A stretch of 28,681 nt of DNA from a virus, in the IMG/VR virus record IMGVR_UViG_3300032316_000635, positions 1-28,681 of that record; one strand, given 5' to 3'. Numbering within the stretch: the first letter of the stretch is position 1; the number at the start of each line of letters is the position of its first letter. The position numbers and the translations under genes are program-made. Shown here piece after piece: positions 2,653-28,063 of this stretch. A model generated the notes under the pieces. It had not been told where the DNA came from. It worked only from the letters and a program-made list of their open reading frames with translations, and ran no database searches.

Positions 2653-3081
2653 TTACAGGTTAGTGAATGTTGCACTAGCAGCAACGTTGGCAGTTGGGAT
2701 ACCAATGTTCAAGCCGCCTGTGGCATTGGCTGTTTGAGCAGCAGCAACCAACTGAGCAGTTGTGTAACCACCAGCTGGATAGATAGCCAAGTTGATAGTA
2801 CCGGCTGTGGCACCTGCTTGATAGAAAGCAACTGTACCACCGGGCACTGTCAAGCCAGCACCTGATTGCACTGCTTGCAACACATTGTTCAAGTAACCGT
2901 TGACGTTACCAGCATTGGTAAGTGCAGCGTTGGCTGTGAGTGTGAAGAATTGCAGTTGTGGACCAGACAACATCACTGGGCCTTGGGCCGCAACGTTGGC
3001 TGTTCCTGAGATTGAACCATTGGCCACGTCCAGTGCAAATACTGGTTGTGTGGTTCCGTTTGTTTTTGTAAACTGTGCCAT
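2653..3081 (-). CDS. Small virion-type protein, possible head decoration or tail component
   Basis: The 142-residue protein is made almost wholly of Ala, Gly, Thr, Asn and Val and has no Cys, His or Trp. This composition is typical of beta-rich virion proteins. It starts MAQFTKTNGTTQPVFALD. The C-terminal half contains GGYTTAQLVAAAQTANATGG. It is monocistronic in appearance: a late promoter TATAAATA lies at 3124-3131, a Shine-Dalgarno (AAGGA) precedes the ATG, and a strong terminator follows the stop. Such isolation with a dedicated late promoter fits an abundant structural protein. The exact role (decoration, tail or neck) cannot be read from the sequence. Confidence 0.8.
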   Translation of the reverse strand: MAQFTKTNGTTQPVFALDVANGSISGTANVAAQGPVMLSGPQLQFFTLTANAALTNAGNVNGYLNNVLQAVQSGAGLTVPGGTVAFYQAGATAGTINLAIYPAGGYTTAQLVAAAQTANATGGLNIGIPTANVAASATFTNL

Positions 3082-3123: not shown

Positions 3124-3131
3124 TATTTATA
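3124..3131 (-). promoter_or_regulatory. T4-type late promoter (TATAAATA)
   Basis: An exact TATAAATA, the sequence recognised by the T4 late sigma factor gp55 with the sliding clamp, lies on the minus strand 42 bases upstream of the ATG at 3081. The leader between contains AAGGA. It sits just outside the stop codon of the upstream gene (3145). Confidence 0.75.
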
Positions 3132-3144
3132 CAATCGGTAAAAA

Positions 3145-5067
3145 TTATGCCTGTTGTGGATTATTTTTAGCCGCATTTCTTGCTGTAAAGTCAAATCTAT
3201 TCACTGCTTTGCCGTAGCCTGCAGGGGTGGCCATGACCCAGCCTTCATGTCCAGGATCTTTCAAATCCAGTTGACGCAGTACATCCAACTTCAAATCATG
3301 CAACAACAAGAACAGGGTAAATGCCGCTGCCAAGCCTTCTGTGTTTGAAGTAGGACTCTGTAGGTATTCCACAATGTTGGCGAATTTGCGTGGAGTTACC
3401 TTGGTCTGCAGCCAGTTACCAAACCCTGACAGCAAGTTGTCAAAGTTACCCCCGGGTTGTCTGATTCTATAATTGATATAGTCCACACACAGTTTTGCTA
3501 GATCTGTGAGTTGTTGTCTTCTTAGTTCAGCAGGATTGAACAAGATGTCAATTGCGGCACCTTTGTCTCGCACCAGTGCTTTGATTTGTTTTGCAAGATC
3601 TGTGTTTGGCACCATTTCTTTGGCAAAGATAGGTTCAATCAACAACAAGCCCGGAACATCGTTGAACTTCACACGCCGCAATGGTTGTTTGGGATCACCT
3701 GCATCTGAGTACATGGTGTGCATGGCAATGCCAATTTCGCTGTTGCCAATGCGTTGACCCAGTGAGCTTTTTGCAGGAATGCGATACTGCACAGTGTTGG
3801 GCTTGAACACATAGTTGCCGGCTTCCAGTGGAGGTGTGGCTTGATACAACAAATCACCTTGTACATAACCACGGAAGTTGGCTGGCAATGCTGCTTCTAG
3901 TACAGGAAATAATCTAGCGTAAGTTTGTATCAGCGCAGATCTATCTCCCGAACGTGTGCGTTGTATATCAGCCATCATTCGGGGACTTGTGGCCAGGCCA
4001 TCATAACCTTTGGCTTCAAATCCAGATCCATCTGTGAGCACAAACTCACCTGTTTCAGGTTTGCGACCAAAGTACACAGCAGGCATACCGTCCCATTTCA
4101 CACTGGTTGTGGTGCCTGGACTGGCAGCAGCCTGGTCCAGTATGCTCAATGCTTCTGCAGCACCACGTGATCCTTTGCGAAACACCAAATCTTCCAGGTG
4201 TTCAATGCCCTTGGCTCTACCACCCACATTGCCTTCGTCAGCTTCATAAATTTGATAGGGATTAGCACTCTCACGTTCTACCGAGGGTTGCATGCCTTGG
4301 TTTACAATTCTATCACGCAGGCGGGCCAGGAAATAAGTGTCAGCATCTTCTTTCACAGCGTCTGGTTGTTGCATGCCTTCTTTGGTCAAGTATTCACGAA
4401 AGTCTTTGACTTTGACTTCTTTGTCTCGGTCCTTGGCTAATGCAGCAAAGATAGTTTCTACATTTTTAAGATCTTTTCTTGTGCGGCCTCGCCCCAACAA
4501 TGCCTGTGCCACATAGTCAGGATCCATGCCACCATCCACAAGTTGGTTTGTGGCACGACTGAACATGCCATTGGCTCCTACTTTGAGCCCCAGTTGTTTG
4601 GCAATGCTTGACATCAGCACATTGCGATTCATGCCTTTGTAAGCAGAGTCTTCGCCGCCCGAATAAAAGAATGTGCCCCAATCCAAGTTGGGAAAAAACA
4701 TAAAGTCTGTTTGCACATAGCCCAGTTCAGGACGTCCTTGTATGGGTGTTCTCAAGTGAACTTCACCGCCCTTTTTGATCCATTCAGCCGGCGGCAGTTT
4801 GTGACTCACAACCCATTGCATGAGTTTGGCGGCCAACTGATCTTTTGACATTTCGCCGGTGTCCACAGCCAAGTCCATGTCTCCAGATGTGGCAGCTCTG
4901 CCGGTTGAGCCCAGCCAACGATCACGTGGAAATTCCAACCCAGTGAGTTGTTCAATCCAGGCCACTGTGGCAGGCACATCGCTTTGATTGATACGACCGG
5001 TGAGTGGCTGTCCGTCGGCATCTTTGAATACATTGCCGCCTTCCAGCAGTGTGCGCAGACTTTTCAT
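3145..5067 (-). CDS. Two-part protein: Pol-beta-type nucleotidyltransferase signature plus KxDG ligase-like region
   Basis: The 640-residue protein shows two separable signatures. Residues 50-125 contain LGSTGRAATSGDMDLAVD, that is GS (53-54) with DxD (63, 65), and then VQTDFMFF with Asp121. This is the pattern of Pol-beta-fold nucleotidyltransferases with three carboxylates. Residues 318-360 contain TTSVKWDGMPAVYFG, with Lys324-Trp-Asp-Gly327 matching motif I (KxDG) of covalent nucleotidyltransferases such as DNA/RNA ligases. Later elements resemble motif III (RGYVQGDLLY, 399-408), motif IV (HEGWVMAT, 607-614) and motif V (GKAVNRFDF, 619-627). Homologues appear to exist in aquatic T4-like phages as uncharacterised proteins, from my memory of such genomes. 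It lies in the late block, overlapping the upstream gene as ATGA. Substrate unknown; a polynucleotide end-joining or tailing role is inference. Confidence 0.72.
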   Translation of the reverse strand: MKSLRTLLEGGNVFKDADGQPLTGRINQSDVPATVAWIEQLTGLEFPRDRWLGSTGRAATSGDMDLAVDTGEMSKDQLAAKLMQWVVSHKLPPAEWIKKGGEVHLRTPIQGRPELGYVQTDFMFFPNLDWGTFFYSGGEDSAYKGMNRNVLMSSIAKQLGLKVGANGMFSRATNQLVDGGMDPDYVAQALLGRGRTRKDLKNVETIFAALAKDRDKEVKVKDFREYLTKEGMQQPDAVKEDADTYFLARLRDRIVNQGMQPSVERESANPYQIYEADEGNVGGRAKGIEHLEDLVFRKGSRGAAEALSILDQAAASPGTTTSVKWDGMPAVYFGRKPETGEFVLTDGSGFEAKGYDGLATSPRMMADIQRTRSGDRSALIQTYARLFPVLEAALPANFRGYVQGDLLYQATPPLEAGNYVFKPNTVQYRIPAKSSLGQRIGNSEIGIAMHTMYSDAGDPKQPLRRVKFNDVPGLLLIEPIFAKEMVPNTDLAKQIKALVRDKGAAIDILFNPAELRRQQLTDLAKLCVDYINYRIRQPGGNFDNLLSGFGNWLQTKVTPRKFANIVEYLQSPTSNTEGLAAAFTLFLLLHDLKLDVLRQLDLKDPGHEGWVMATPAGYGKAVNRFDFTARNAAKNNPQQA

Positions 5068-5864
5068 TTTATCAGTCCCATGTGGCGCAGTAGATCATCC
5101 ATCACTGGGTTGCCTGTGGCTCGCACTGGTGTGGGATTTTGTTGTATCAATTGCGCAAGACCCTGCAGATCTTCATCTCTCACGCCCAGCGCACTCATGG
5201 CTTTGGCCACATTGCTGGTAGTAGGACCAGATTTAACAACACTGCCAACAGCACCGCTGCCGGCGCGATTTGTATTGGGCTGGCCCTGAAAGGTCATTAA
5301 AGATGCTGCATTGGCAATGCCTTGACTGAGATTCAACCAAGCAGTATTCAACTTGTCAGCATCTTTGGCAGTGACTATGGCCAGCAGCGCATCATCCACT
5401 TGCTGTAATGTGCGATCAATGTCTCTAGACACTGTGGTATCACTGTTGTTGACAATTTGATCTGTAAAGTCATCCAGAGTGGGCACTGGCACCCCTGCTT
5501 GATTATCCATGGTGGCCTTGAGTCCGTGCGGACGCAACATGGACTCAAACTGTTTCATCAAAGTATCAGCCAATTCTTTGGAGTCCAACTCTGACAATCC
5601 TGCATTCTTGGCAGTATTTTTCATGGTTTGCACAGTTCTAGTCCACAACTGTTGTTGTTGTTGTGCCTGTTGTTTGATCACTGGCTCTGACAATTTTTGT
5701 GCCTGCTGCTGAGATGCCAGGCCTTGTACCTGAGTTGATTGTTTGGGCTGCATGCCAAAATATTCTCTAGTGGCCGCGCCGGCTGCCTGGGCCAGACCTC
5801 GTCCCACAGCACCGTAGTTGATTTCTGTGATTTTTTTGATCTGGGTAATTTCAAAAATCTGCAT
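5064..5864 (-). CDS. Hypothetical Gln/Ala-rich protein, 266 aa, probable late/structural
   Basis: Not recognised. The N-terminus MQIFEITQIKKITEINYGAV resembles the hydrophobic-acidic leaders that many virion proteins of aquatic T4-like phages carry. Residues 45-75 are strongly Gln-rich (two QQAQ blocks and five consecutive Gln) and probably helical. The rest is a soluble, mostly helical region with Asp/Thr-rich segments. The C-terminus GNPVMDDLLRHMGLIK ends in an ATGA overlap with the next gene. The start overlaps the upstream gene by 14 bases. No catalytic motif or membrane segment is visible. Confidence 0.72.
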   Translation of the reverse strand: MQIFEITQIKKITEINYGAVGRGLAQAAGAATREYFGMQPKQSTQVQGLASQQQAQKLSEPVIKQQAQQQQQLWTRTVQTMKNTAKNAGLSELDSKELADTLMKQFESMLRPHGLKATMDNQAGVPVPTLDDFTDQIVNNSDTTVSRDIDRTLQQVDDALLAIVTAKDADKLNTAWLNLSQGIANAASLMTFQGQPNTNRAGSGAVGSVVKSGPTTSNVAKAMSALGVRDEDLQGLAQLIQQNPTPVRATGNPVMDDLLRHMGLIK

Positions 5865-6138
5865 GAGTTCGTTTCATTGATCGGTTAAATTTACCTGTGT
5901 CTCTCAGGCGTATGGCATTGAGAAATTTGCGTTGTAGATTTTCAGCTTGTTCGGCTGAAAATTCACTGTCAATCTGTTCCATCAAACGAATAGCAGATTC
6001 TATAATGTTGTGAGCGCGAGTTTCAATCACAGTTTTACGATCCCGCTCAACATAGAGGCTGTCTAGTTCTTCTAATATGCTTTTGGTTTTCTTTTGCATT
6101 TGCTCAAAGGCCTTTGGATTATTTAGCGAAAATGGCAT
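5851..6138 (-). CDS. Small helical hypothetical protein, 95 aa
   Basis: The protein is highly charged and almost entirely helical, with a likely coiled coil across residues 10-80 (EQMQKKTKSILEELDSLYVE and following). It has no Cys and no membrane segment. It is the first gene of the 3145-6138 minus-strand run and overlaps the next gene by 14 bases. No Shine-Dalgarno is visible before the ATG at 6138, and no clear late box was found on this strand within 60 bases. Function unknown. Confidence 0.7.
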   Translation of the reverse strand: MPFSLNNPKAFEQMQKKTKSILEELDSLYVERDRKTVIETRAHNIIESAIRLMEQIDSEFSAEQAENLQRKFLNAIRLRDTGKFNRSMKRTHADF

Positions 6139-6169: not shown

Positions 6170-7870
6170 ATGACCAGTCAAATCAATCCCAACGATATCA
6201 ACGGTGAATATCCCGTAGCAGGTGTCAGTAATAACACTCAAGGCATGCGTGATAATTTTACCAATACCAAACAGAATTTTCAATATGCTAAATCAGAAAT
6301 AGATGATCTGCAGGCCAAAGCAGTGCTGAAATCTGCGTTGACAGGCACCACGCTGGACAACAACATGGCCAATAATGTGATTTATAACGCACAAATTCGT
6401 GGTTTTTCTGGCACCGTTGTGGCCATTGCTGCTACGTCGGGCAGCATTGCTGTTGACTACACAGCTGGCCACTATCAAACCATTGTGATGGCTGGCAATG
6501 TGAGTTTGAGTTTTACCAACTTTCCCGCTGCTGGTACAGCCGGCATGTTGCGCCTGCGAATCACTGTAGATGCTGCAGGTCGTACATTGACTTTGCCTTC
6601 CGCTGTAAGTGTGGGCACTGTGGGTGTGCAAGGATATGCAGCCAATGTGATTACCTTTGCAGCAGCTGGTATATTTGAATTTGGGTTTGTTACTACTGAT
6701 TCGGGCACTACTATCACCTTGTTTGATTTGAATCGTCCTCTCAACTACTACACCAATACCGTGACCATTGCAGCCACTACTAGCAGTGTGAGTTCAGGAT
6801 CAGGTGCGTTGATAGTAGCTGGTGGCGTTGGCGTGGCCGGCAATCTCTATGTCAGCGGTAACATTGTAGGCAGCATAGTGGCCACGGGCAACACATTTGT
6901 GGGCAACACCACAGTGGGCAATTTATTGACCAGTGGATTTGTCAGTGCTGCTGGCAACGTCACTGGTGGCAATGTCATCACTTGTGGATTTGTCAGCGCC
7001 ACCGGCAATGTTACAGGCGGCAATCTAAACGCCACAGGTTTGAGCCTTTCGGGAAATATTGTCAGTGCTGTGAATCTCACTGCCAATGTGACCACCACAG
7101 CCAACATTGCTGGAGGCAATGTCAAAACTGGCGGCATCATGTCAGCCACAGCCAATGTCACTGGTGGCAACATACTCACTGGTGGATTGATTTCGGCCAC
7201 CAGCACTATAACATCAACTGCCAACATCACTGGTGCCAACATACTCACTGGTGGATTGATTTCGGCCACTGGCAACATCACCTCAACTGCCAATATCAGC
7301 AGTGGCAACATACTCACCAGTGGATTGATTTCGGCCACTGGCAACGTCACTGGTGGCAACATCTTGGGCGGAGCCAATGTCAATGCTACCACTCACACAG
7401 GTGCTACAGCATCGCTGAGTGGCAACGTCATAGGCGGCAACATTTTAACTGCTGGATTGATTTCAGCCACTGGCAATGTCACAGGCGGCAACATTTTAAC
7501 TGCTGGATTAATCAGTGTCACTGGCAACATCACTGGCGGTAATATCAGTGCTGCAATTCACACAGGTACTACAGCCAGCTTGAGTGGCAACGTCACAGGC
7601 GGTAACGTATTGTCATCTGCTTTGATATCTGCTGTGGGCAATGCCATGATACTTTCTGGTACTGCCATGCCAGCTGGTGGCACAACAGGCGCAGGTTACA
7701 AATTGTCTACTACCAACAATTTTGGTATTTTCTTTGGGTCAGGTGCACCTACCTTGTCTGCGGCGCAGGGATCACTGTATTTGCGTAGTGACGGATCAAC
7801 AACAAACAATAGAATGTATGTCAACACCAACGGCGCTACCACATGGACTGCTGTGATCACTGCGGCTTAA
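6170..7870 (+). CDS. Repetitive tail-fibre-like virion protein, 566 aa
   Basis: Residues 1-57 form a conserved-looking N-terminal attachment segment (MTSQINPNDINGEYPVAGVS, then NTQGMRDNFTNTKQNF). Residues about 60-200 are a beta-rich domain. Residues about 210-490 are repeats built on GN(V/I)(T/L)GGN-ILTGGLISATG with 17- and 23-residue periods, a pattern expected for a trimeric beta-helical fibre shaft. Residues 505-566 end with GSLYLRSDGSTTNNRMYV and TTWTAV, a C-terminal module common in phage fibre and tail proteins. The gene stands alone on the plus strand, with an AAGGA Shine-Dalgarno before the ATG. Its stop overlaps the stop of the convergent helicase gene by four bases. A receptor-binding or fibre-shaft role is inferred. 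Confidence 0.88.
   Translation: MTSQINPNDINGEYPVAGVSNNTQGMRDNFTNTKQNFQYAKSEIDDLQAKAVLKSALTGTTLDNNMANNVIYNAQIRGFSGTVVAIAATSGSIAVDYTAGHYQTIVMAGNVSLSFTNFPAAGTAGMLRLRITVDAAGRTLTLPSAVSVGTVGVQGYAANVITFAAAGIFEFGFVTTDSGTTITLFDLNRPLNYYTNTVTIAATTSSVSSGSGALIVAGGVGVAGNLYVSGNIVGSIVATGNTFVGNTTVGNLLTSGFVSAAGNVTGGNVITCGFVSATGNVTGGNLNATGLSLSGNIVSAVNLTANVTTTANIAGGNVKTGGIMSATANVTGGNILTGGLISATSTITSTANITGANILTGGLISATGNITSTANISSGNILTSGLISATGNVTGGNILGGANVNATTHTGATASLSGNVIGGNILTAGLISATGNVTGGNILTAGLISVTGNITGGNISAAIHTGTTASLSGNVTGGNVLSSALISAVGNAMILSGTAMPAGGTTGAGYKLSTTNNFGIFFGSGAPTLSAAQGSLYLRSDGSTTNNRMYVNTNGATTWTAVITAA
7168..7338 (+). repeat. Coding direct repeats in fibre gene (69-bp period)
   Basis: A 33-base stretch beginning CAACATACTCACTGGTGG at 7168 recurs without mismatch at 7237 and with two mismatches at 7306. 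The spacing is exactly 69 bases, that is 23 codons. A second repeat type with a 51-base period (17 codons) begins at about 7432 and 7483. The repeats keep the reading frame, so unequal recombination could lengthen or shorten the fibre shaft without disrupting it. Confidence 0.88.
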
Positions 7871-9312
7871 CCAGTTTTGATCTTGCCCAAAAGTTGTTTT
7901 AATTTGGCGCTTTGAACATCTGCTGTGACTTTGGGTGCCGCTAGTTCAAAACCTTCTCGGGCTTGTGGTCGTTCCCAAGGCACAGATTTATCGTCATCTG
8001 CGGCTGCATTAACTTGGCTTTTTGCTTTGATCGAGTCCATGATACTTGTACTGGGCTTTTTGCTGAACCCGTTTTCGTTGTCATCCCCACCTTCATCAGT
8101 AATGCGCATGGTTTCAATGTTGTACTCCAAATCAATTTTTTGACCAACGCCGGTCGAGCTTCGTGACTTCATACACTGTATTTGGTATTTGCCACGTTCC
8201 TTCATTGCTCGGCTTGTGAAAATGCCGAACACGTTATCTGCTGTGTTGATCTTGGAAATACCACCCGAAATATGCGAGTGATCAAATTCAATTTCTTCCA
8301 CAGCGGATCTGTTCAACTGCGATGCAGTTACCATTAGGATTCCTAGCTCTTTGGCTAAATTACGGAGTTCTTCTGACACATACTTGTCTTTCACAAACAA
8401 GTCGTTGGGCGAAACTTTTGCACTCACTGGCATCAACAAGTCCAAGTAATCAATCATCACAAAGTCCACACGTTTGCCAGTTTGAATTTGATATTCTTTC
8501 AAATAAGCACGGATGTCATTGATGTTGCTCTGTGCCGGCAAGCCTTTGACTTGATAGTTGCCCGACTTTTTGGCCACCAGTTTGACCTTGAGTTCTGTAG
8601 TATCAATGTCTCGGCGAATGTCCTTGGTGCTCATGTTTGTGAGCATGGCATCTGTTCGCAAACTTGTGAGTTCTTCACTGAGTTCCAGTGTGATGTACAC
8701 GCCACTCAACCCTTGTTGCAACCAGTTAAGCGCAATGTTCATCATCACAAGACTCTTGCCCGAGCCTGATCCTCCGGCAAAGATGTTGAGTTCACCGCGA
8801 CTGAACCCACCATACAACAATCTGTCCAGTTGTGGCCAACCTGTTGATACCTGTCCACCTGAGTTAAAATATTTGTTGATGCGAGCCGCTGGATCTGCAA
8901 AATAGTCTGTGCCCATGTCTCTAGTCAACGATATCTGTACCGCATCCTTGATCAGTTTTTCCACAGGTTCAAAGTCGCCTTTTTCCAGCATGTCTGCGGC
9001 TTTTAAAATGGCACGTTCTAGTTCCTGGCGGCGAGTGAATGCTTCAAACTCACCCATGAACCAATCAAAGTGCCCCTCATTCAAATCTGGCACAGCCTGT
9101 AATTTAACGCCAGTGGTGGCCGAAATCTGCATACGGTCAGGCAAGGTCTTGTGTTTTTCTGAATGTTCTTTGATGAACTCAGCCGCAGGCCTCAGACTCT
9201 TGTCAAAATTTTGCGGGTTGTAGATGTTTTGAACACGCACATAGCTCTGTGCGTCCTCCAACATCATTTCTAGAAACAGGCGTTGAACATCAGTGTTGTA
9301 ATCTTTTAACAA
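7867..9312 (-). CDS. Replicative DNA helicase, DnaB/T4 gp41 family
   Basis: The 481-residue protein has a RecA-type ATPase core: Walker A GGSGSGKS (180-187), the catalytic Glu in YITLELSEE (Glu210), and a Walker B strand VDFVMIDYLDLLMP (Asp288 region). The segment ILMVTASQLNRS matches the DnaB sensor region. The length agrees with T4 gp41 (475 residues). It acts as the hexameric replicative helicase at the phage fork, with the primase encoded immediately upstream. The start is a TTG at 9312, supported by AAGGA about nine bases upstream and by the natural N-terminus MLKDYNTDVQRLFLEMML. It overlaps the primase gene by 23 bases. The C-terminal 80 residues are polar and low-complexity. Confidence 0.94.
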   Translation of the reverse strand: MLKDYNTDVQRLFLEMMLEDAQSYVRVQNIYNPQNFDKSLRPAAEFIKEHSEKHKTLPDRMQISATTGVKLQAVPDLNEGHFDWFMGEFEAFTRRQELERAILKAADMLEKGDFEPVEKLIKDAVQISLTRDMGTDYFADPAARINKYFNSGGQVSTGWPQLDRLLYGGFSRGELNIFAGGSGSGKSLVMMNIALNWLQQGLSGVYITLELSEELTSLRTDAMLTNMSTKDIRRDIDTTELKVKLVAKKSGNYQVKGLPAQSNINDIRAYLKEYQIQTGKRVDFVMIDYLDLLMPVSAKVSPNDLFVKDKYVSEELRNLAKELGILMVTASQLNRSAVEEIEFDHSHISGGISKINTADNVFGIFTSRAMKERGKYQIQCMKSRSSTGVGQKIDLEYNIETMRITDEGGDDNENGFSKKPSTSIMDSIKAKSQVNAAADDDKSVPWERPQAREGFELAAPKVTADVQSAKLKQLLGKIKTG

Positions 9313-10276
9313 GTGCTTTCTTCCTTAACTCAATTTTAATTCTACTGGTCTCTCGTGATTGCATTATAGTTAGTAGGGCACCTAGTCGTCCCAACTTAAT
9401 CACAGCATCGTTGACATCTTTGCAGCCCACGGGCCAGTCAGGTATGCTCACTGCACAACCCAGTTCCACAGCACGGTCAATTAGTTCTACGCCTGCTCGA
9501 TCCTGATCCGGCACTATAGTTACCTCTCGTCCGAGGCTGCGTATCAATCTGGCCTGTGCATCTGACACAGTGTTGTGCATCACAGCCACACCGCCAATGC
9601 TGAGTGCATCAAATATACCTTCAGTTACAATCACATGTTGCCAATCTGTGGGTTGCAAGTCTGTGCCAAACACATAACCTGGTTGACTGTCACTGATGAA
9701 CTTGGGTTGCTTGTCATCTAAAAATCTGCAAGTGTATCCCACAATCTTGTTGTCATACGTAAATGGTATAACCACATGCGGGCGTGTCCAATGTACCCCG
9801 TCATTCTCTATCTGCACCATGGCAGGAAAGTCTTTGGGCACATGTCTAGCACGTACATACTCCCAATATGGTCCATGCTCAGGCATCAACAATTCAGCAT
9901 ATGGTGGTAAGTCTCGTTCTTCAAATGTAATACCTGCTAGTGTATTCCATGTTTGTTGTCGATCTTGTATGATTCCATGTATGCTTCGATGCCGCAGACT
10001 TTCTAAGTTCAGCATCTCTATTTCTGTTTCTGGCACACCCATCCAGCCCAACAGTTTACGTGCTTTGTAACTTACACTGCGTCCTAATATAAAACTGGCT
10101 GTGTATGCACAATTGAAACAGTGATAACTCCATCCTTGATCGGTGGCTTTGAGTCCGCCACGCCCTCGTCGATCCTGCGTTGATCCATTGTGCTGACAGC
10201 ATACTGCATTGAAACTCAACCACCCAGAGGGTGTTGGTTTCTTTTTTGCAGGCAGATAAGCAAGGATATCAAGCAT
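9290..10276 (-). CDS. DNA primase, T4 gp61-like (zinc finger + TOPRIM)
   Basis: The 328-residue protein has an N-terminal zinc-binding region with Cys26, Cys27 and His29, and then His52, Cys53 and Cys56 (YHCFNCAYTASF). A TOPRIM domain follows, with VIVTEGIFDALS (Glu219) and the paired aspartates in TIVPDQDRAG (Asp257, Asp259). This order and length match T4 gp61 (342 residues), which makes RNA primers with the gp41 helicase; that helicase gene overlaps the 3' end. The ATG at 10276 lies only six bases after a TATACT -10 box and has no Shine-Dalgarno, so the mRNA may be leaderless. The C-terminus is basic. Confidence 0.93.
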   Translation of the reverse strand: MLDILAYLPAKKKPTPSGWLSFNAVCCQHNGSTQDRRGRGGLKATDQGWSYHCFNCAYTASFILGRSVSYKARKLLGWMGVPETEIEMLNLESLRHRSIHGIIQDRQQTWNTLAGITFEERDLPPYAELLMPEHGPYWEYVRARHVPKDFPAMVQIENDGVHWTRPHVVIPFTYDNKIVGYTCRFLDDKQPKFISDSQPGYVFGTDLQPTDWQHVIVTEGIFDALSIGGVAVMHNTVSDAQARLIRSLGREVTIVPDQDRAGVELIDRAVELGCAVSIPDWPVGCKDVNDAVIKLGRLGALLTIMQSRETSRIKIELRKKALVKRLQH

Positions 10277-13250: not shown

Positions 13251-13600
13251 GTTCTACACAATGCCACAACAGTTTTCAATTGCTGTTCGGCCTCACGCAC
13301 AGCCCCCAGGGCATCGGCCACAGCAGGATACTGTTCAGCCATGCGCCGGGCTTCTGCTTCTTTGTCACGCTGTTCTCTCACCCAGTCAAGTAAAAGTTCA
13401 GCATCTGGGTTGAGTCCAACCCAGCATTGACCTAGACTGAGCGGTTGCCAACCAGTACCGTTGTACACTTCCAGTCGTTGAGAGCTGGTATTATATTGTA
13501 ACTGCCCCACACCCATGTAACCAGCGTTGTTGATATAATTACTACCAGTGCTGTTAGCAACTGTCACATACTTGCCAGTTTGCGCAATATTTCCTATCAT
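13247..13600 (-). CDS. Small virion/fibre-like protein with helical tail, 117 aa
   Basis: Residues 1-55 (MIGNIAQTGKYVTVANSTGS, GQLQYNTSSQRLEVYNGTGW) match the short beta module found at the ends of many phage tail and fibre proteins, where a line of text like LRYNTTTGRLEVYDGTGW recurs. Residues 60-117 are a charged helix, probably a coiled coil (REQRDKEAEARRMAEQYP). It is joined by ATGA overlaps to a radical SAM gene upstream and the AT-rich unknown downstream. Whether it is incorporated into virions or was carried in with the accessory genes cannot be told. Confidence 0.75.
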   Translation of the reverse strand: MIGNIAQTGKYVTVANSTGSNYINNAGYMGVGQLQYNTSSQRLEVYNGTGWQPLSLGQCWVGLNPDAELLLDWVREQRDKEAEARRMAEQYPAVADALGAVREAEQQLKTVVALCRT

Positions 13601-15102
13601 GTCAATTTCCTTGCTGCTTCTAATTCTGGAATATAATCTGCCAATTTGATATTTCTTGACTGATCCAATTTGTCATTGAATTCAAAAAAGGCGTTGAGTT
13701 TTTCCAAATCCAATTTGAAATTTTTGTCATAGTGCATTATAACACCGTCAATAAAACTTTGCAACAATAAATCATTACGATAACATTTTAATTGTCTAAT
13801 GCGTACCAAACTTTCTAATATCAAATTCCTATCTGGAAAATTCAATGCAGAAAATAGGTCATTTGTTGAATTGGCAAACTGACAATGTACCAATGTTGCA
13901 GAAAATTCTTGATCAAAAAATACCAACAGATCATACAATCGAAAAATATTGTATATGGATACTGTTGTATTAAATGATACCACATGGTTTTGTTCTTTAA
14001 GATATCTAACGTTGTCAACTATTGTTTCCCATTTGCTAGGCCAACGTATGTAATGATTTAATTCACCAAGCCCGTCAATACTGATAATAAATTGAAAGTT
14101 GGAAAATTCTTTAAGTTGTTTTTTAAATTTATCGCTGAGTTTGGTACCATTTGTGTTAACAACAAATTCAAAATTTGTCTGTTTGGTTTGTATGCACTTT
14201 TCAACAAAATTATAAAATTCCGGCATTGCAGTAGGTTCGCCGCCGGCAACATACAATTTTTTAATATTTTCAAGTTTAACAAAATCAAAATTTGCATAAT
14301 TTTTTTTGTTGTAGTCAGTGATCAAATTAATTTTTTTATATTCTTGTGCTATTAGGTTACTGCTGTCTGGTCCACAAGTTCTACACTGTAAATTACAGGT
14401 GTTGCCTGGACGAACTTCATAGTACACTGGATGTTGTAAATTATTTAGATCATCAATGCTATGTAAATTCAACCTGTTGGCCCATTCAACAGTTTCTTGC
14501 ATTCTTGCACTCAAGATGCCGCGTTCTTCAAGATTGTAACAGCTAAAACAGTGCTCGGGCATGAGTATCCCCGACAACATGTTGTTTCTTATTTTTTGAT
14601 AGTGTGGATCTGTTTTAAAATCTACAATGTCCGACAACAATGTTATTGGTGTATTTGATCTACAACACACTGTTGTTTGACCATTGTTTGCTAATAATTC
14701 TATAAATGGAAAAATGCAAAAACTTTTATTTGTTTTTGTTAGATCTTCAAAAAATGTTATATTGGTGTTGTATGTTGAATCTAAGTATACCACTGGTACT
14801 GTGGCATTGATTTGTTTGGCAGCGCGAATAGTTTTATAAAATGCGTCAGGATGAGAATATTGTTCTCGTGACTGATCTAATATCACAATTTGATCAAATT
14901 CTTGTGCTAAATCAATCAGTCGATGATATTCTAAATCATACACGCTAGAATGATAATAACCTGGATATTGTATTAATTCTAAGTCAATCACATGATCAAG
15001 TTCAGAAATTAATCCGTGACACTGGACTGATTGTTGTTCGGCCAGTCGACGAGTTTTGGCATCAGTGTCTTCAGTGTTATTTCCAAGGCATAAAATTCGC
15101 AT
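13597..15102 (-). CDS. Radical SAM protein with N-terminal twitch-like domain, 501 aa
   Basis: The radical SAM core contains CNLQCRTC (Cys236, Cys240, Cys243; CxxxCxxC) for the 4Fe-4S cluster that binds SAM, then VAGGEPT (GGEP at 287-290) and ISIDGLGE. Upstream of the core, residues 128-190 hold further cysteines (FCIFPFIELL, TVCCRSN, HCFSCYNLEERG). They resemble the auxiliary-cluster ligands of SPASM/twitch domains but lie N-terminal. The first 120 residues are a separate alpha/beta region. The start ATG at 15102 overlaps the upstream stop as TAATG; a longer frame to 15201 exists but would overlap by 100 bases. The gene is AT-rich. The substrate is unknown; peptide or protein modification is typical of twitch-bearing relatives. 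Confidence 0.88.
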   Translation of the reverse strand: MRILCLGNNTEDTDAKTRRLAEQQSVQCHGLISELDHVIDLELIQYPGYYHSSVYDLEYHRLIDLAQEFDQIVILDQSREQYSHPDAFYKTIRAAKQINATVPVVYLDSTYNTNITFFEDLTKTNKSFCIFPFIELLANNGQTTVCCRSNTPITLLSDIVDFKTDPHYQKIRNNMLSGILMPEHCFSCYNLEERGILSARMQETVEWANRLNLHSIDDLNNLQHPVYYEVRPGNTCNLQCRTCGPDSSNLIAQEYKKINLITDYNKKNYANFDFVKLENIKKLYVAGGEPTAMPEFYNFVEKCIQTKQTNFEFVVNTNGTKLSDKFKKQLKEFSNFQFIISIDGLGELNHYIRWPSKWETIVDNVRYLKEQNHVVSFNTTVSIYNIFRLYDLLVFFDQEFSATLVHCQFANSTNDLFSALNFPDRNLILESLVRIRQLKCYRNDLLLQSFIDGVIMHYDKNFKLDLEKLNAFFEFNDKLDQSRNIKLADYIPELEAARKLT

Positions 15103-15791
15103 TACCATCCTGCCTGTTTCAATATTAGTTTTGCGTATTCTGTGTCTGCGGCATAGTCTGAGAATTTCTTTTGCCACACATCTGAATCTATGTAAGGCCA
15201 TATCATGCCCACCTGATCAGCAGTGAGTTCGCCCAGGAACTTTTGCCCCGACTCTGAATTGTATATCACCCAAGGACTGATGCGTCCGGTAGTGATAGCA
15301 TGGCACATGGCATGTGTACTACCGTAACGCAAACAATCATGTGGCGAGGCCGAGTGTTTTTCACTCCAGTCTATGCCAAACTCCACTGCTCGTGCCAGTG
15401 CATCTGCCACTGCTTCTACCTTTAGGTAGTCCAGCAAGTATTCGGTATAGACTTTGTCACTGCCCCAGTTGTCAATCTTTTTGTTGTGTTTCAGCAACCA
15501 TTCTGTGAACTGTCTAGGATTGATTACCTTTGTGGCCACACAGTATCTGCCAAATTTTACAAATGCTCGGTAGTAAGGTGAGTCAGCAAAGTCATCAAAT
15601 GTTTTGAGTCGAGCCGAGCCTTGTGCAATCTCATAGAAACGCAAGTAGGATTGAAAGCCCAGTTCAACACCACGTTCACTGCGTTCTTGTCGTCGTCGTT
15701 TGGGCTCACACATGTGAACCACAAGACTTTCTGCACGACGAAATGTTTTCTTGCAGTAACCGCAGGTCAGTTCACTTGATGTCTCGGCCAT
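15102..15791 (-). CDS. Zinc-finger-containing conserved phage protein, 229 aa
   Basis: The N-terminus carries a C2H2-like finger: CGYCKKTFRRAESLVVHMCE, with two cysteines, a spaced His and a further Cys, followed by a basic patch (PKRRRQERSER). The remaining 180 residues are helical and soluble, with motifs such as FVKFGRYCVATKVINP and WVIYNSESGQKFLGEL. I know it only as a conserved type in aquatic T4-like phages. A nucleic-acid-binding role is suggested by the finger. The start overlaps the upstream gene by 20 bases, and the stop forms TAATG with the following radical SAM gene. Its composition is closer to the core genes than to the AT-rich neighbour. Confidence 0.82.
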   Translation of the reverse strand: MAETSSELTCGYCKKTFRRAESLVVHMCEPKRRRQERSERGVELGFQSYLRFYEIAQGSARLKTFDDFADSPYYRAFVKFGRYCVATKVINPRQFTEWLLKHNKKIDNWGSDKVYTEYLLDYLKVEAVADALARAVEFGIDWSEKHSASPHDCLRYGSTHAMCHAITTGRISPWVIYNSESGQKFLGELTADQVGMIWPYIDSDVWQKKFSDYAADTEYAKLILKQAGW

Positions 15792-16221
15792 GGTCTCGAA
15801 TGTGTTGATCTAGTTCTTTCTTTGTGGTCATTGATGCCAGCATGGCTATTTCATCTTCTTTGTATGTGGGAAATAACTCGGCCAACTGTTTTCTAATGCT
15901 GCTTGCTCCTGCACCTGTTTCTTTCTTCTTGGGCGAGATCCAGTTGTGTCTGGGTGTGCCCATGTCTGGACTCACTGTGGTAGCACACAACCATTGCAGT
16001 TCAGGATGACGGCTGATGTTGAAGAAGTGTTTGTTCAATCGCTCGTTGGTGGAAATCAAATAAAATTCTTGCATCTCCTTGGAACCTTCCACACATGATG
16101 CCCAACGAATCATGAGATAGTTGGAGAACTTCTTGCGTTCCTCATCTGTGAGATCACGATAGAAGTTTCTGTTTTTGCGATCCAGTTGTCGCATCTCATT
16201 GGCAATGGTCAGTTTATCCAA
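15772..16221 (-). CDS. Conserved phage protein, possibly clamp-loader small subunit (gp62-like)
   Basis: From the chosen TTG start the protein is 149 residues: MDKLTIANEMRQLDRKNRNF, then LTDEERKKFSNYLMIRW, NERLNKHFFNISRHPELQW and a PKKKE basic patch. Proteins with this pattern in aquatic T4-like phages are, as far as I recall, sometimes annotated as the clamp-loader small subunit; no diagnostic motif proves it. The start is uncertain. TTG at 16221 overlaps the upstream stop by 8 bases and gives the most natural N-terminus. An ATG at 16194 loses nine residues, and an ATG at 16281 adds a 68-base overlap. It is co-transcribed with the zinc-finger gene, overlapping it by 20 bases. Confidence 0.7.
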   Translation of the reverse strand: MDKLTIANEMRQLDRKNRNFYRDLTDEERKKFSNYLMIRWASCVEGSKEMQEFYLISTNERLNKHFFNISRHPELQWLCATTVSPDMGTPRHNWISPKKKETGAGASSIRKQLAELFPTYKEDEIAMLASMTTKKELDQHIRDHGRDIK

Positions 16222-17272
16222 TTTGTAACGTCTCTCTGTATATACTGTGTTTGACCGGCAAATTGTCAAACCATTTTTCATTTCGATAATTGTCTTGTAT
16301 CATTTGCTGGGCCAAGAAACGATACCAGTTGGTTTCATTATAACGTTGATTGCGCAAAGCGTCAATTGCTCTTTGCATGTTGAACTTTTCAGCAAATTTT
16401 GACTGTTGTAACATGTTTATTAGAGCAGGACGGTATTGATCTGGAATGCTTCCTAGTCCAATAATAGAGTCCGCATTGGCCAACACTGGTTCAAATTGAT
16501 TTGGAGTTAGCCATGCAAAATATTCTAACAACTCAGAAAACCACCAAATATTAATAGCACTGATCACCGTGGCAATTTTAATATTACAGTTTGTTTGGGT
16601 GAGAACCCATTTTAAATTAGACTCCACTGTGTTCCAGTCACTGCCACTGCGCACTATGTCTGCATACTTGCCCACAGCATCTATACTTGCATGAACATTA
16701 ATACAACTAAATGATGGCCATAGATCTTTCACATGTTTTGATTTGGCTCCCAACACAGTCATGTTGGTACTGTACATGATTGCAGGATCAGCACCTTGTG
16801 CAATTAATTTTTCAAGCACTTGGTAATGTTGCGGGTTTAGCAGTGGCTCACCACCTGCAAAATAAATTTGTTTGCACTCACTTAGATCCATGTCTGCCAC
16901 ATTGATTGGATTGTACAAACTTATGTCTTCTACTCCGGCTTCACTGGCCCAGCTGGTACTGAATCCTGGACCGCAACTGCGACACTTTAAATTGCAAAGA
17001 TTGTTGTTGCGAAAATCTAAAAATTTTATCTTGTGTGTGGCATAGTCTGTTTCATAATTTTTATACATTCCTCGCCAGCCTTCGGCATCTGGAGGACAAG
17101 AATTTGCACATTCACGAGGAACTTCTCCCCGTAGAAACGCACCACCCACCTGCGCAGTCATTTCCTCGCGGCTGCTGAACTGTGGGCCGTTCCAGGCACA
17201 GCAAGGTGTGTATTTGTTGCCGGGCATGTAACACACACTGGTCCAAGGTGCTTTACAAAAAACTTTATTCAT
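16214..17272 (-). CDS. Radical SAM protein with N-terminal twitch-like cysteines, 352 aa
   Basis: CNLKCRSC (Cys93, Cys97, Cys100) provides the SAM-binding 4Fe-4S cluster. FAGGEPLLNP follows (139-148), and ASIDAVGKYAD fits the later core strands. The N-terminal 60 residues carry Cys6 (FCKAPWTSVCYMP), Cys24-Cys25 (TPCCAWNG), Cys55 and Cys59 (ECANSCPPD), the ligand pattern of a twitch/SPASM auxiliary cluster placed before the core. It is a shorter, distinct relative of the 501-residue radical SAM protein three genes downstream. The ATG at 17272 overlaps the upstream stop as ATGA; a longer frame to 17365 is less likely. Substrate unknown. Confidence 0.9.
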   Translation of the reverse strand: MNKVFCKAPWTSVCYMPGNKYTPCCAWNGPQFSSREEMTAQVGGAFLRGEVPRECANSCPPDAEGWRGMYKNYETDYATHKIKFLDFRNNNLCNLKCRSCGPGFSTSWASEAGVEDISLYNPINVADMDLSECKQIYFAGGEPLLNPQHYQVLEKLIAQGADPAIMYSTNMTVLGAKSKHVKDLWPSFSCINVHASIDAVGKYADIVRSGSDWNTVESNLKWVLTQTNCNIKIATVISAINIWWFSELLEYFAWLTPNQFEPVLANADSIIGLGSIPDQYRPALINMLQQSKFAEKFNMQRAIDALRNQRYNETNWYRFLAQQMIQDNYRNEKWFDNLPVKHSIYRETLQIG

Positions 17273-17577
17273 TTTACTTTGACTAATTTGTATATCATTA
17301 TAGCACGTTCCAGTGCGTCTTGTAAAGCAGGTGTGGTTTTTGCCAGTCTGTGGATGTCGCCCCACATCTTGCTTTCCATTAGATGATCATGTAAGAGTCT
17401 GCCATCGGGTGTTCGTTTATCGTAGTCTATTTTATGACCAGATACCGGATCGTATTCCGTACCAGATTCATATCCTACCACTTGGCGTGTGCTAGGATCT
17501 GCTCCAAACTCTCGAGCATACACAATGCCGTCGGTACGCTCGTAAATGTATGTGGCGTCGGGTTTAAGGCTGCCCAT
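17269..17577 (-). CDS. Conserved phage hypothetical protein, 102 aa
   Basis: From the ATG at 17577 the protein starts MGSLKPDATYIYERTDGIVY, with AREFGADPSTRQVVGYES and a helical C-terminus (LQDALERAIMIYKLVKVK). I associate it with small conserved proteins of aquatic T4-like phages; no function is known. An ATG at 17598 would add seven residues and increase the overlap with the preceding small gene from 14 to 35 bases, so 17577 is preferred. The stop overlaps the radical SAM start as ATGA. Confidence 0.75.
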   Translation of the reverse strand: MGSLKPDATYIYERTDGIVYAREFGADPSTRQVVGYESGTEYDPVSGHKIDYDKRTPDGRLLHDHLMESKMWGDIHRLAKTTPALQDALERAIMIYKLVKVK

Positions 17578-24915: not shown

Positions 24916-25730
24916 AGTCCTTGTCTTAGTTCTTCCACAGTGTATTCAGTGTGGCAAATCTTGATCAACCACGATTCCCTGTCTACATTATAAGATTGTT
25001 CAATGTCAGCATAGCCCACTGCCACTGGGTATGCCAAACTACTGTGTGCCACAATGGGTCTGCAACCTGCAATACCTGCCTGTATTCCCGGTCCTGAGTT
25101 GTGATTCACAACAGCATGATAATTAAAGTGCATGTCAAAACTGTCATAGGTATTGGCCACAGGACGTGCAACTTCTATGGTGGTATTTTGGGGCAAGTAT
25201 GGCATTTGTAACGGAGATCGAGGATGTGCTCGTATGCATATGGGGCGATCAGTGGAGTTTCGTAATTGTTGAATTTGCATCAACACCCATGATTCCATGC
25301 TGTCAATGCCGGTAACTTGCAGACTATTACGATGCTGTGCGGCAATTATAATTTCTGGTCTAGGATTAACTTGTGTGGCCAAACTTATTTGCAATTGTCG
25401 TGGACGGTCCCAGTCTAAATTGCATTCGTGTCCGTAGTAACCATCCCGGGTGATGTGATTTACTGCTAGTTTCCAGGTCTGTCCACGGTACAATGCACCA
25501 ATGTCTATCACAATCACAGGTTTGCCTTGGCTGCGATAGTGTTCGTACACCCCTTGATTGGCTCGCATTCTGCCGTGCCATAGCACTGACCAAATTACCG
25601 CGGCATCTGCTGTCCGAGAGTTTTCTTGTGTTTGTATGCCCGCAGCCTGACAACAATCCAAGAACGCACTCATCACAGGCTTGGAATTCAATGCACACTG
25701 AGCAGGAAAATAGGCTATGCTTTTGATCAC
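24879..25730 (-). CDS. GT-B/capsule-type glycan protein, 283 aa
   Basis: The C-terminal half contains CIRAHPRSP, FDMHFNYHAVVNHNSGPG and IQAGIAGCRPIVAHSS. This is the donor-binding pattern of GT-B-like capsule/CDP-glycerol-type transferases, in which a conserved His and a glycine-rich turn face the nucleotide. The same layout occurs in the plus-strand 268-residue protein at 26523, so the two are related. The N-terminal half is a second alpha/beta domain (AVIWSVLWHGRM, VIVIDIGALYRG). The start is probably the GTG at 25730 (MIKSIAYFPAQ); an ATG at 25766 would overlap the divergent gene. Substrate unknown. Confidence 0.72.
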   Translation of the reverse strand: MIKSIAYFPAQCALNSKPVMSAFLDCCQAAGIQTQENSRTADAAVIWSVLWHGRMRANQGVYEHYRSQGKPVIVIDIGALYRGQTWKLAVNHITRDGYYGHECNLDWDRPRQLQISLATQVNPRPEIIIAAQHRNSLQVTGIDSMESWVLMQIQQLRNSTDRPICIRAHPRSPLQMPYLPQNTTIEVARPVANTYDSFDMHFNYHAVVNHNSGPGIQAGIAGCRPIVAHSSLAYPVAVGYADIEQSYNVDRESWLIKICHTEYTVEELRQGLWLKRIATALTV

Positions 25731-25738
25731 TGTAAATA
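25731..25738 (+). promoter_or_regulatory. Possible late box, leaderless spacing (TGTAAATA)
   Basis: TGTAAATA, one mismatch from TATAAATA, ends five bases before the ATG at 25744, the same spacing as the exact box before the oxygenase gene. It lies in the 13-base gap between divergent glycan genes. Confidence 0.4.
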
Positions 25739-25743
25739 CACTT

Positions 25744-26526
25744 ATGAAATACACTGTAGTTACCACTTTTAATGCCGAGGGATATAACTCTTACGGCCAA
25801 AGAATGATTCAAACTTTTTTGCAGACTTGGCCTCAAGACGTCATGCTCCGAGTGTACGCTGAAGGTTGTCAAGTGACCGAAGCTGCACCCAATCTTGAAG
25901 TATTGAATCTAGAAGGGGTCAGTGCTGATCTTGTAGCATTCAAAAACAAGTGGCGCAATGTGCCCAAGGCCAATGGCAATATTGGACCAGGCAGTGAACG
26001 CAAGGCATTCAAATGGCAAGCAGTGCGTTTTGCTCACAAAGTATATGCCATATTCCATGCAGCCCAGCATGCCACAACAGATTGGTTGATTTGGATGGAC
26101 GCTGACATGGTGTGTCATAGCCCAATCACTGTGCAATGCATCGACAAATTCTTCCCGGTGGACAGAGAACTGTGTTATGCTGGACGCAGTAACAAGTTCT
26201 CTGAATGTGGACTTTATGGTATGAATTTAAAACGTGACCCGGTGCTGAAGTTTCTTGCAGAGTTTCAGCGCATGTATGACGATGCTGAACATGGTATCTT
26301 TACACTCAAAGAATGGCACGACAGTTATGTGTTTGATGATGTCAAAAACCGCAGCGGCCTAGCAGAACTAAACTGGTCAGCAGGCCTGATCAATGGCGAA
26401 GGGCATCCCTTGATCAACTGTGAGTGGGGCGCATACATTGACCATCTCAAAGGCAAACGCAAAAACGATGGTCGTAGCAAAGCCAAAGACCTTGTGGTTC
26501 GTCGCACTGAACTATACTGGCAATGA
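25744..26526 (+). CDS. GT-A glycosyltransferase-like protein, 260 aa
   Basis: MKYTVVTTFNAEGY begins with a typical GT-A first strand. TTDWLIWMDADMVC carries DxD at Asp119-Asp121. EWHDSYVFDDV and a late NCEWGAYIDHLKG follow, where the acceptor-side residues usually lie. The basic C-terminus (KGKRKNDGRSKAKDLVVRR) could bind a phosphorylated glycan or nucleic acid. The start is the ATG at 25744; the frame is open upstream to 25717 but overlaps the divergent gene. No Shine-Dalgarno is present. The stop overlaps the next start as ATGA. Donor and acceptor are unknown. Confidence 0.82.
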   Translation: MKYTVVTTFNAEGYNSYGQRMIQTFLQTWPQDVMLRVYAEGCQVTEAAPNLEVLNLEGVSADLVAFKNKWRNVPKANGNIGPGSERKAFKWQAVRFAHKVYAIFHAAQHATTDWLIWMDADMVCHSPITVQCIDKFFPVDRELCYAGRSNKFSECGLYGMNLKRDPVLKFLAEFQRMYDDAEHGIFTLKEWHDSYVFDDVKNRSGLAELNWSAGLINGEGHPLINCEWGAYIDHLKGKRKNDGRSKAKDLVVRRTELYWQ

Positions 26527-27329: not shown

Positions 27330-27367
27330 ACCACTTAACATTGCAACCATTTGTGTTTGAATATACT

Positions 27368-28063
27368 ATGAAATCGTTTATAATTAGATTAAAACACAAT
27401 AAAATTTCCGAAGAACAAGCCCGAGACTGTGTTGAACAAGCCCAAACATTCAACATAGATGTTGAATACTTTGATGCTATAAACGGACTTGAACATCAAG
27501 CGCATTGCAAAAAATTAAACATACGGCCGTTAAAATTCTTTAAGAAAGGTCTACCAGGAGTGTATGGTTGTTTGTTGAGTCATTACTATCTTTGGTTAAA
27601 ATGCGTAGAACTAAATGAGCCCATAGCAATACTGGAACATGATGGTTATTTTATTAGGCCATTGCCCAATGATATTTTAGATAAATTTCAAGACGTGTTA
27701 AAATTAGATTCAGTAAATCCTTACGATCCAGAGTATTCAAAAATCATACAAGATTCATTCCATGATGATTATGAGCTAGAAATTACTGAAATCAACAACA
27801 ATGAAAAATTACATAATGACGCTGGCTTTTATTCCTGGGGATCTTATGCATATATCATCAAGCCCCATGCCGCGCAAAACATAATTAACTGGATCGCTGT
27901 ACATGGATTTTTGCCATCAGATCATCAATTGGGCACACGAGTAGCACGTATAGAAACTTGCCGTCCAACCATGGCAAGATTGCATCCATTTTATGCTGTA
28001 GACAATAACATTAACACAATGTCACTGACCAGAAATACAAAATTTTTGTCAAATCAAGAGTAA
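27368..28063 (+). CDS. GT25-family glycosyltransferase-like protein, 231 aa
   Basis: MKSFIIRLKHNKISEEQARD is the N-terminal strand-helix of GT25 (LPS/collagen-type) transferases. GLPGVYGCLLSHYYLWLKCV matches the conserved G-C-x-x-S-H segment. IAILEHDGYF (Glu90-His-Asp92) stands where most members have EDD. The C-terminal part GFLPSDHQLGTR matches the (D)xxL acceptor-site region. The gene is AT-rich compared with the two preceding glycan genes. The start at 27368 follows a 38-base gap without a clear Shine-Dalgarno. It probably adds galactose or glucose to a glycan; the exact sugar is unknown. Confidence 0.8.
   Translation: MKSFIIRLKHNKISEEQARDCVEQAQTFNIDVEYFDAINGLEHQAHCKKLNIRPLKFFKKGLPGVYGCLLSHYYLWLKCVELNEPIAILEHDGYFIRPLPNDILDKFQDVLKLDSVNPYDPEYSKIIQDSFHDDYELEITEINNNEKLHNDAGFYSWGSYAYIIKPHAAQNIINWIAVHGFLPSDHQLGTRVARIETCRPTMARLHPFYAVDNNINTMSLTRNTKFLSNQE

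Follow-up and report, generated by a model that had tools for sequence, protein, structure and literature searches.

In the window analysed here, a 28,681-nucleotide stretch of viral DNA (IMG/VR record IMGVR_UViG_3300032316_000635, positions 1 to 28,681), a gene on the minus strand (3145..5067; open reading frame (ORF) 5067..3145, ATG start) encodes a 640-residue protein that we read, with somewhat better than even confidence, as a two-domain strand-repair enzyme that would fill a gap and then seal the nick. This reading is based on sequence, conservation, predicted folds, and gene linkage, and the points in its favour are confident models, invariant catalytic residues, the fusion or pairing of both parts in relatives, nearby replication genes, and the precedent of PgVPolX, a family-X polymerase fused to a ligase. 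The N-terminal domain, a Pol X-like nucleotidyltransferase (NTase) (4363..5067, minus strand; residues 1-235, with a thumb-like region at about 139-204), would add one or a few nucleotides to the 3'-OH at a gap, using D63, D65, and D121 as metal ligands, G53-S54 to bind the triphosphate, and its thumb-like helices. The C-terminal DUF6267 ligase-type domain (3148..4218, minus strand; residues 284-640, delimited by Pfam, model, fold search, and invariance) would form lysyl-AMP at K324, transfer AMP to the 5'-phosphate, and seal the nick with D405, E608, K620, and R624. We infer that both steps take place one after the other on a single substrate, which is presumably duplex DNA with a gap or a nick and not RNA. 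Metal binding and lysine adenylylation are the chemistry predicted from sequence and models, and the protein suggests that a single chain may be able to refill and reseal broken nucleic-acid strands.

Motifs and predicted folds of the two domains

The original prediction, made by reading the sequence, had placed a GS pair at 53-54, a DxD at 63-65, an aspartate at 121, a KWDG motif, and elements resembling ligase motifs III-V in this protein, and every one of them was found at its position. In the N-terminal half the NTase motifs are G53-S54, D63-M64-D65, and D121; G53, D63, D65, and D121 show no variation across 118-119 distinct NTase sequences, in which position 54 holds either S or T. By model and fold search, residues 1-204 are predicted to fold like family-X polymerases. 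The top Foldseek matches were Pol lambda, mu, beta, and TdT (probability about 1.0, E-value 3e-3), and VIA aligned 164 residues with Pol beta (5v1f) at a Z score of 10.7 and 3.5 Å, an alignment that spans model residues 8-204 on Pol beta 101-335 and so covers both palm and thumb. In a single hhalign comparison of the NTase with the bacterial PolX proteins collected here, the GS pair, the DxD, the third aspartate, and the thumb were colinear (E-value 2e-3). The palm and thumb fold and the order GS, DxD, D are common to this domain, to Pol beta, lambda, and mu, and to ASFV PolX, a minimal form that also has no 8-kDa lyase domain (PMC5537341). RlaP (PF10127) was considered as the NTase family and rejected, as there was no Pfam match and hhalign to bacterial RlaP found nothing while PolX aligned. 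The Pfam scan returned no family for the first 280 residues.

Pfam assigns residues 288-631 to DUF6267 (PF19782; 109.4 bits against a cut-off of 27, model positions 4-371 of 376), and the C-terminal domain is therefore a member of that family; the protein also matches PHROG 455, which is labelled 'unknown function', and DUF6267 is likewise of unknown function in Pfam. The ligase-like motifs comprise K324-W-D-G327 (motif I), GDLLY at 404-408 including D405 (motif III), EG at 608-609 (motif IV), and K620-A-V-N-R624 (motif V), with motif III carrying D where E is usual and motif V reading KxxxR rather than KxK. Among 192-195 distinct C-terminal sequences, K324, D326, G327, E608, G609, K620, and R624 are 100% conserved, position 405 is D in 99% and E in 1%, and H450, N532, and K593 are likewise invariant; the invariant residues K, D, G, D, E, G, K, and R of the 640-residue protein recur in the cyanophage members of DUF6267/PHROG 455. 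Variation of the named residues among homologues had been set beforehand as an observation that would count against both catalytic sites, and they proved invariant or nearly so. A helical insertion of six helices (about 489-603), which holds the invariant N532 and K593, lies between motifs III and IV.

Modelled alone, the C-terminus reached a predicted local distance difference test score (pLDDT) of 92.1 and a predicted template modelling score (pTM) of 0.87, and by model and fold search residues 284-640 are predicted to fold like a ligase-type nucleotidyltransferase. DNA ligases headed the Foldseek matches (6wbo, E-value 2e-3, probability 0.97; human Lig1; T4 ligase), and the VIA matches were Naegleria RNA ligase (Z 9.1 over 181 residues), TbREL1 (7.6), human Lig1 (7.5), and T4 Rnl1 (7.5). 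Separate fold searches of the two halves had been proposed as a check, and they point to a family-X polymerase at the N-terminus and a ligase-type nucleotidyltransferase at the C-terminus. The domain shares a common nucleotidyltransferase core and the ligase motifs with Naegleria RNA ligase, TbREL1, and T4 Rnl1 and Rnl2 (VIA Z 7-9), but it differs from them in its helical insertion between motifs III and IV and in having almost nothing past motif V. With an invariant KxDG, motifs III-V in order, and, by a modest margin, an adenylyltransferase fold, it appears to carry the features of the covalent nucleotidyltransferase (ligase/capping) superfamily. The Pfam scan of the 640-residue protein gave no match to PF01068 (ATP-dependent DNA ligase), PF01653 (NAD+-dependent), or PF09414 (T4-type RNA ligase), and an NCBIfam scan of it gave no match. 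PDB sequence searches recognised no similarity of the C-terminus to solved structures. Neither phmmer nor profile searches against PDB sequences yielded a credible relative, whether the query was the 640-residue protein, DUF6267, the NTase, or the jumbo-phage ligases described below; the matches listed for A5 and A7 are helical chance matches.

The two halves are joined by a linker (residues about 239-282) of low model confidence. The full-length AlphaFold model has a mean pLDDT of 87.9 and a pTM of 0.58, which leaves the relative placement of the halves uncertain. Both halves are under purifying selection, with nonsynonymous rates (dN) of 0.05-0.17 and synonymous rates (dS) of 0.8-1.5.

The pairing of the two activities, which the original prediction had considered unusual, has a precedent in the giant-virus protein PgVPolX of Phaeocystis globosa virus, a family-X polymerase of 1093 amino acids fused to an NAD+-dependent DNA ligase, for which polymerase, lyase, and ligase activities in base excision repair have been proven (PMC5537341). 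PgVPolX is the closest characterised protein and likewise joins PolX and ligase on one chain, and by analogy the 640-residue protein plausibly works in the same way; however, PgVPolX has an 8-kDa lyase domain and NAD+-ligase homology, whereas the protein described here has no lyase domain and its C-terminus is DUF6267. Since the defining features of the PgVPolX type, of canonical DNA ligases, and of Pfam-defined PolX were each tested and not found, it stands outside all three. A literature search returned nothing on DUF6267 or on any phage PolX-ligase fusion, although an earlier description in the RNA-repair work of Burroughs and Aravind is possible. What the sequences and models suggest as new here is the assignment of DUF6267 as a ligase together with a phage fusion of a Pol X-like domain to it. 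Such a fusion would be the phage counterpart of PgVPolX, though its ligase part differs and is smaller, and it would bear on whether sealing needs an OB domain.

Fusion and pairing of the domains in other viruses

Relatives were collected by a search of IMG/VR, from which the best 80 of 465 stretches were kept (best-segment identity 76-90%), and by wider profile searches that added DUF6267 proteins of the cyanophage type as well as NTases encoded by separate genes; the counts given here include near-identical sequences, and the count of fused genes leaves out the window together with L001, its copy in the database. The NTase and DUF6267 are fused in 94 virus ORFs besides that of the window. 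The NTase stands alone in 69 ORFs (66 from IMG/VR and three from annotated phages), and a ligase-type ORF is present in 66 of these 69 loci. It overlaps the NTase gene in 52 cases (34 by 4 bases, 12 by 1), lies 141-151 nucleotides away in nine, and 922-1255 nucleotides away in five. The three loci in which no ligase-type ORF was found are all from IMG/VR, and one of them (L247) ends soon after the NTase gene. In the jumbo phages Phosso, Atu_ph07, and PA5oct the same NTase is paired with another ligase-like protein, of a group that aligns with DUF6267 around motif I (hhalign probability 93%) and of which four of six members match the Pfam RNA_ligase profile (PF09414) weakly, below the cut-off (best E-value 9.5e-4). 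A scan of genome contigs with one pattern found two loci in metagenome-assembled genomes, one with phage-like gene order. A contig in a Methylophilaceae metagenome-assembled genome (L260) has the same order of primase, helicase, and NTase, a hint at the host group.

A DUF6267 relative was found in 467 phage records, nearly all of cyanophages or related marine phages, and the cyanophage members examined have no Pol X-like domain and either stand alone or carry a fused HIGH-type nucleotidyltransferase. A HIGH-type domain is fused behind NTase and DUF6267 in four longer ORFs (L217:3817-6006, L218:2078-5362, L233:4929-8414, and L249:4944-8759), which range from 730 amino acids, in one that runs off the contig end, up to 1271 amino acids, and a HIGH-type nucleotidyltransferase gene lies within five genes downstream in about 49 further loci. 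Firm assignment of this partner as an NMNAT was dropped, as no NMNAT model reached its cut-off, and the identity is kept as speculation. The frequency of this third partner, together with the fact that both folds transfer nucleoside monophosphate groups, is what speaks for a modifier of proteins or small molecules, using AMPylation-like or guanylyl-type chemistry, rather than a nucleic-acid repair enzyme; with nucleic-acid enzymes as the nearest folds and a replicative gene setting, we regard this as very improbable.

Some further features of these loci were observed. In S-PM2 (L089, AJ630128; 5980-7759) the annotated DUF6267 gene p138 is shortened by a stop, another frame continues the DUF6267 sequence into the HIGH-type domain of p139, and BFVD holds a 591-residue S-PM2 protein; from the sequence, p138 and p139 seem to be one gene split by a frameshift or a sequencing error. 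Many loci have, after the ligase gene, a conserved helical-looking protein matched by neither Pfam nor PHROG (a cluster of 46 ORFs; for example L234:6005-6883, L082:8845-9522, and L087:6806-7594). In Pelagibacter phage HTVC008M a P-loop kinase (zeta toxin/AAA_33 profile; L085:7706-8368) lies two genes past DUF6267. Genes just upstream of cyanophage-type DUF6267 (L096:1895-2998, L085:4911-5969, and L084:6829-7980) contain D...K patterns that recall PD-(D/E)xK nucleases.

Substrate and role of the ligase-type domain

Several observations weigh against an enzyme that fills gaps and seals nicks in DNA. At the N-terminus the 8-kDa lyase domain is absent, the alignments starting at Pol beta residue 91 or later; the Pfam palm and thumb profiles were each reached by only one of 29 members, at sub-cut-off scores (E-values 0.077 and 0.006), and a search of phage records with the PF14791 profile gave no match. 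At the C-terminus the Foldseek E-values are modest, none falling below 1e-3 in PDB, and the VIA Z scores barely exceed the range of unrelated matches, so that motif order and invariance bear much of the weight. The literature search found no activity reported for any DUF6267 protein. The occurrence of cyanophage DUF6267 without the NTase means that the ligase part does not always depend on the polymerase part. Finally, the OB domain and motif VI are absent from the sequence and models, as the chain ends about 16 residues past motif V in what is modelled as a helix. DNA ligases generally need the OB domain and motif VI, and RNA may therefore be the substrate.

The missing OB domain and the likeness to RNA ligases are the reasons for which we keep RNA end repair under consideration, in which cleaved tRNA, or another RNA, would regain its lost nucleotides through the Pol X-like domain and be resealed by the OB-less DUF6267 domain as a counter to host RNases. 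Rnl1/Rnl2-type RNA ligases are not known to have an OB domain, the top VIA matches of the C-terminus are RNA ligases (Naegleria and TbREL1), and the jumbo-phage sister ligases match the Pfam RNA_ligase profile, if weakly. Repair by an NTase with an RNA ligase has also been proposed as a phage strategy in the form of RlaP plus Rnl pairs (PMC7824862), which resemble the present case in joining a phage NTase to a ligase; however, the NTase here is not RlaP by profile, aligning with PolX instead, and its two parts are fused or encoded by overlapping genes. The neighbouring genes are a replicative helicase and a primase, and DNA ligases rank first among the Foldseek matches of the C-terminus. We consider RNA repair possible but doubtful; the Pol X fold and the location among replication genes make us favour DNA as the substrate.

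The second consideration is whether DUF6267 may chiefly be the nick-sealing ligase of replication and recombination in phages that lack g30, with the NTase an accessory gained by some lineages. This is compatible with gap filling and sealing by the fused protein, and we entertain it tentatively. Homologues of g30 have not been found in cyanomyoviruses, for which the host ligase has been proposed to serve (PMC2984593), and most phages of jumbo subgroup 2.1, which includes cyanophages, have no known ligase (PMC7824862); a distant DNA ligase or none in cyanomyoviruses has been left open (PMC2984593, PMC7824862). We searched 18 records with the profiles PF01068, PF01653, and PF09414, bearing in mind that IMG/VR records may be incomplete. 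None of the three profiles matched in P-TIM40, S-RSM4, HTVC008M, Melnitz, S-PM2, or two long cyanophage-type IMG/VR records, and these seven records carry a standalone DUF6267, which, with the broad distribution of the family among marine phages, argues for such a role. DUF6267 would then be a concrete, testable candidate for the missing cyanomyovirus ligase. The standalone ligase DNA-binding domain AAX44695.1 (PMC7824862) is a small P-SSM2 gene distinct from DUF6267. Against a main-ligase role, the host enzyme could serve, and seven of the 18 records contain a PF01068 ligase: PA5oct, four near kin of the window, and two IMG/VR records less closely related to it. In Phosso and Atu_ph07 the ligase is of the NAD+ type. 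Because PF01068 ligases occur in its kin, we no longer take a role as replicative ligase in the window virus as the principal interpretation of the 640-residue protein. It is probably not the replicative ligase of the near kin, and because these also carry a canonical ATP-dependent DNA ligase, it would act there as an auxiliary repair enzyme.

A broader and more speculative proposal, which we think unlikely, is that DUF6267 constitutes an unrecognised family of OB-less nucleic-acid ligases, the only ligase of cyanophages with no known one, which, fused on one chain to a Pol X-like polymerase and in certain viruses also to an NMNAT-like HIGH nucleotidyltransferase that could regenerate NAD+, would form a self-contained gap-repair machine.

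Genome setting and the late promoter motif

The 640-residue protein is encoded by the last of three overlapping minus-strand genes. The first (5851..6138; 95 amino acids) matches PHROG 11854, 'virion structural protein', and the second (5064..5864; 266 amino acids), with relatives directly upstream in about 60 of the collected loci, overlaps the start of the 640-residue gene by 4 bases. Further upstream, on the same strand, are a DnaB-type replicative helicase (7867..9312), a conserved neighbour, and a TOPRIM DNA primase (9290..10276), and a repeat-rich protein of 566 amino acids (6170-7870, plus strand) lies between the helicase gene and the 95-residue gene. Helicase genes and genes of the 95- and 266-residue types recur upstream in relatives.

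The original prediction had assigned the gene to the late block, a placement that the primase and helicase setting and the position of a T4-type late promoter sequence do not bear out. This sequence, TATAAATA (3124..3131, minus strand), lies 13 nucleotides past the stop of the 640-residue gene and ahead of a gene for 142 amino acids (2653..3081, minus strand). The sequence downstream of the gene extends far enough in 76 fused relatives, and TATAAATA stands exactly 13 nucleotides after the stop in 52 of them; these 52 are its only same-strand occurrences in the about 625 kb covered by the 76 loci, and none was found within 1300 nucleotides upstream of the gene. As far as one exact motif tells, the late unit begins after the 640-residue gene. 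Pointing the other way on timing are the PHROG name of the 95-residue gene and the annotation of the PA5oct NTase relative as seen by mass spectrometry.

These two observations also speak for a virion-associated enzyme or structural protein, packaged to act on incoming genome ends or with domains that are themselves structural, as the PA5oct NTase relative EST35_0231 (L088 5902-6615) and its neighbours are annotated 'structural protein, ESI-MS/MS' and the 95-residue gene belongs to the same run. However, the ligase-like EST35_0228 of PA5oct is not marked as found in the virion, and the late-promoter motif starts only after the 640-residue gene. We judge a virion role improbable, and the invariance of the catalytic residues makes a merely structural one unlikely.

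Elsewhere in the window, two radical SAM proteins are encoded at 13597-15201 and 16214-17365 (minus strand), and glycosyltransferase-like genes lie at 25717-26526 and 27341-28063.
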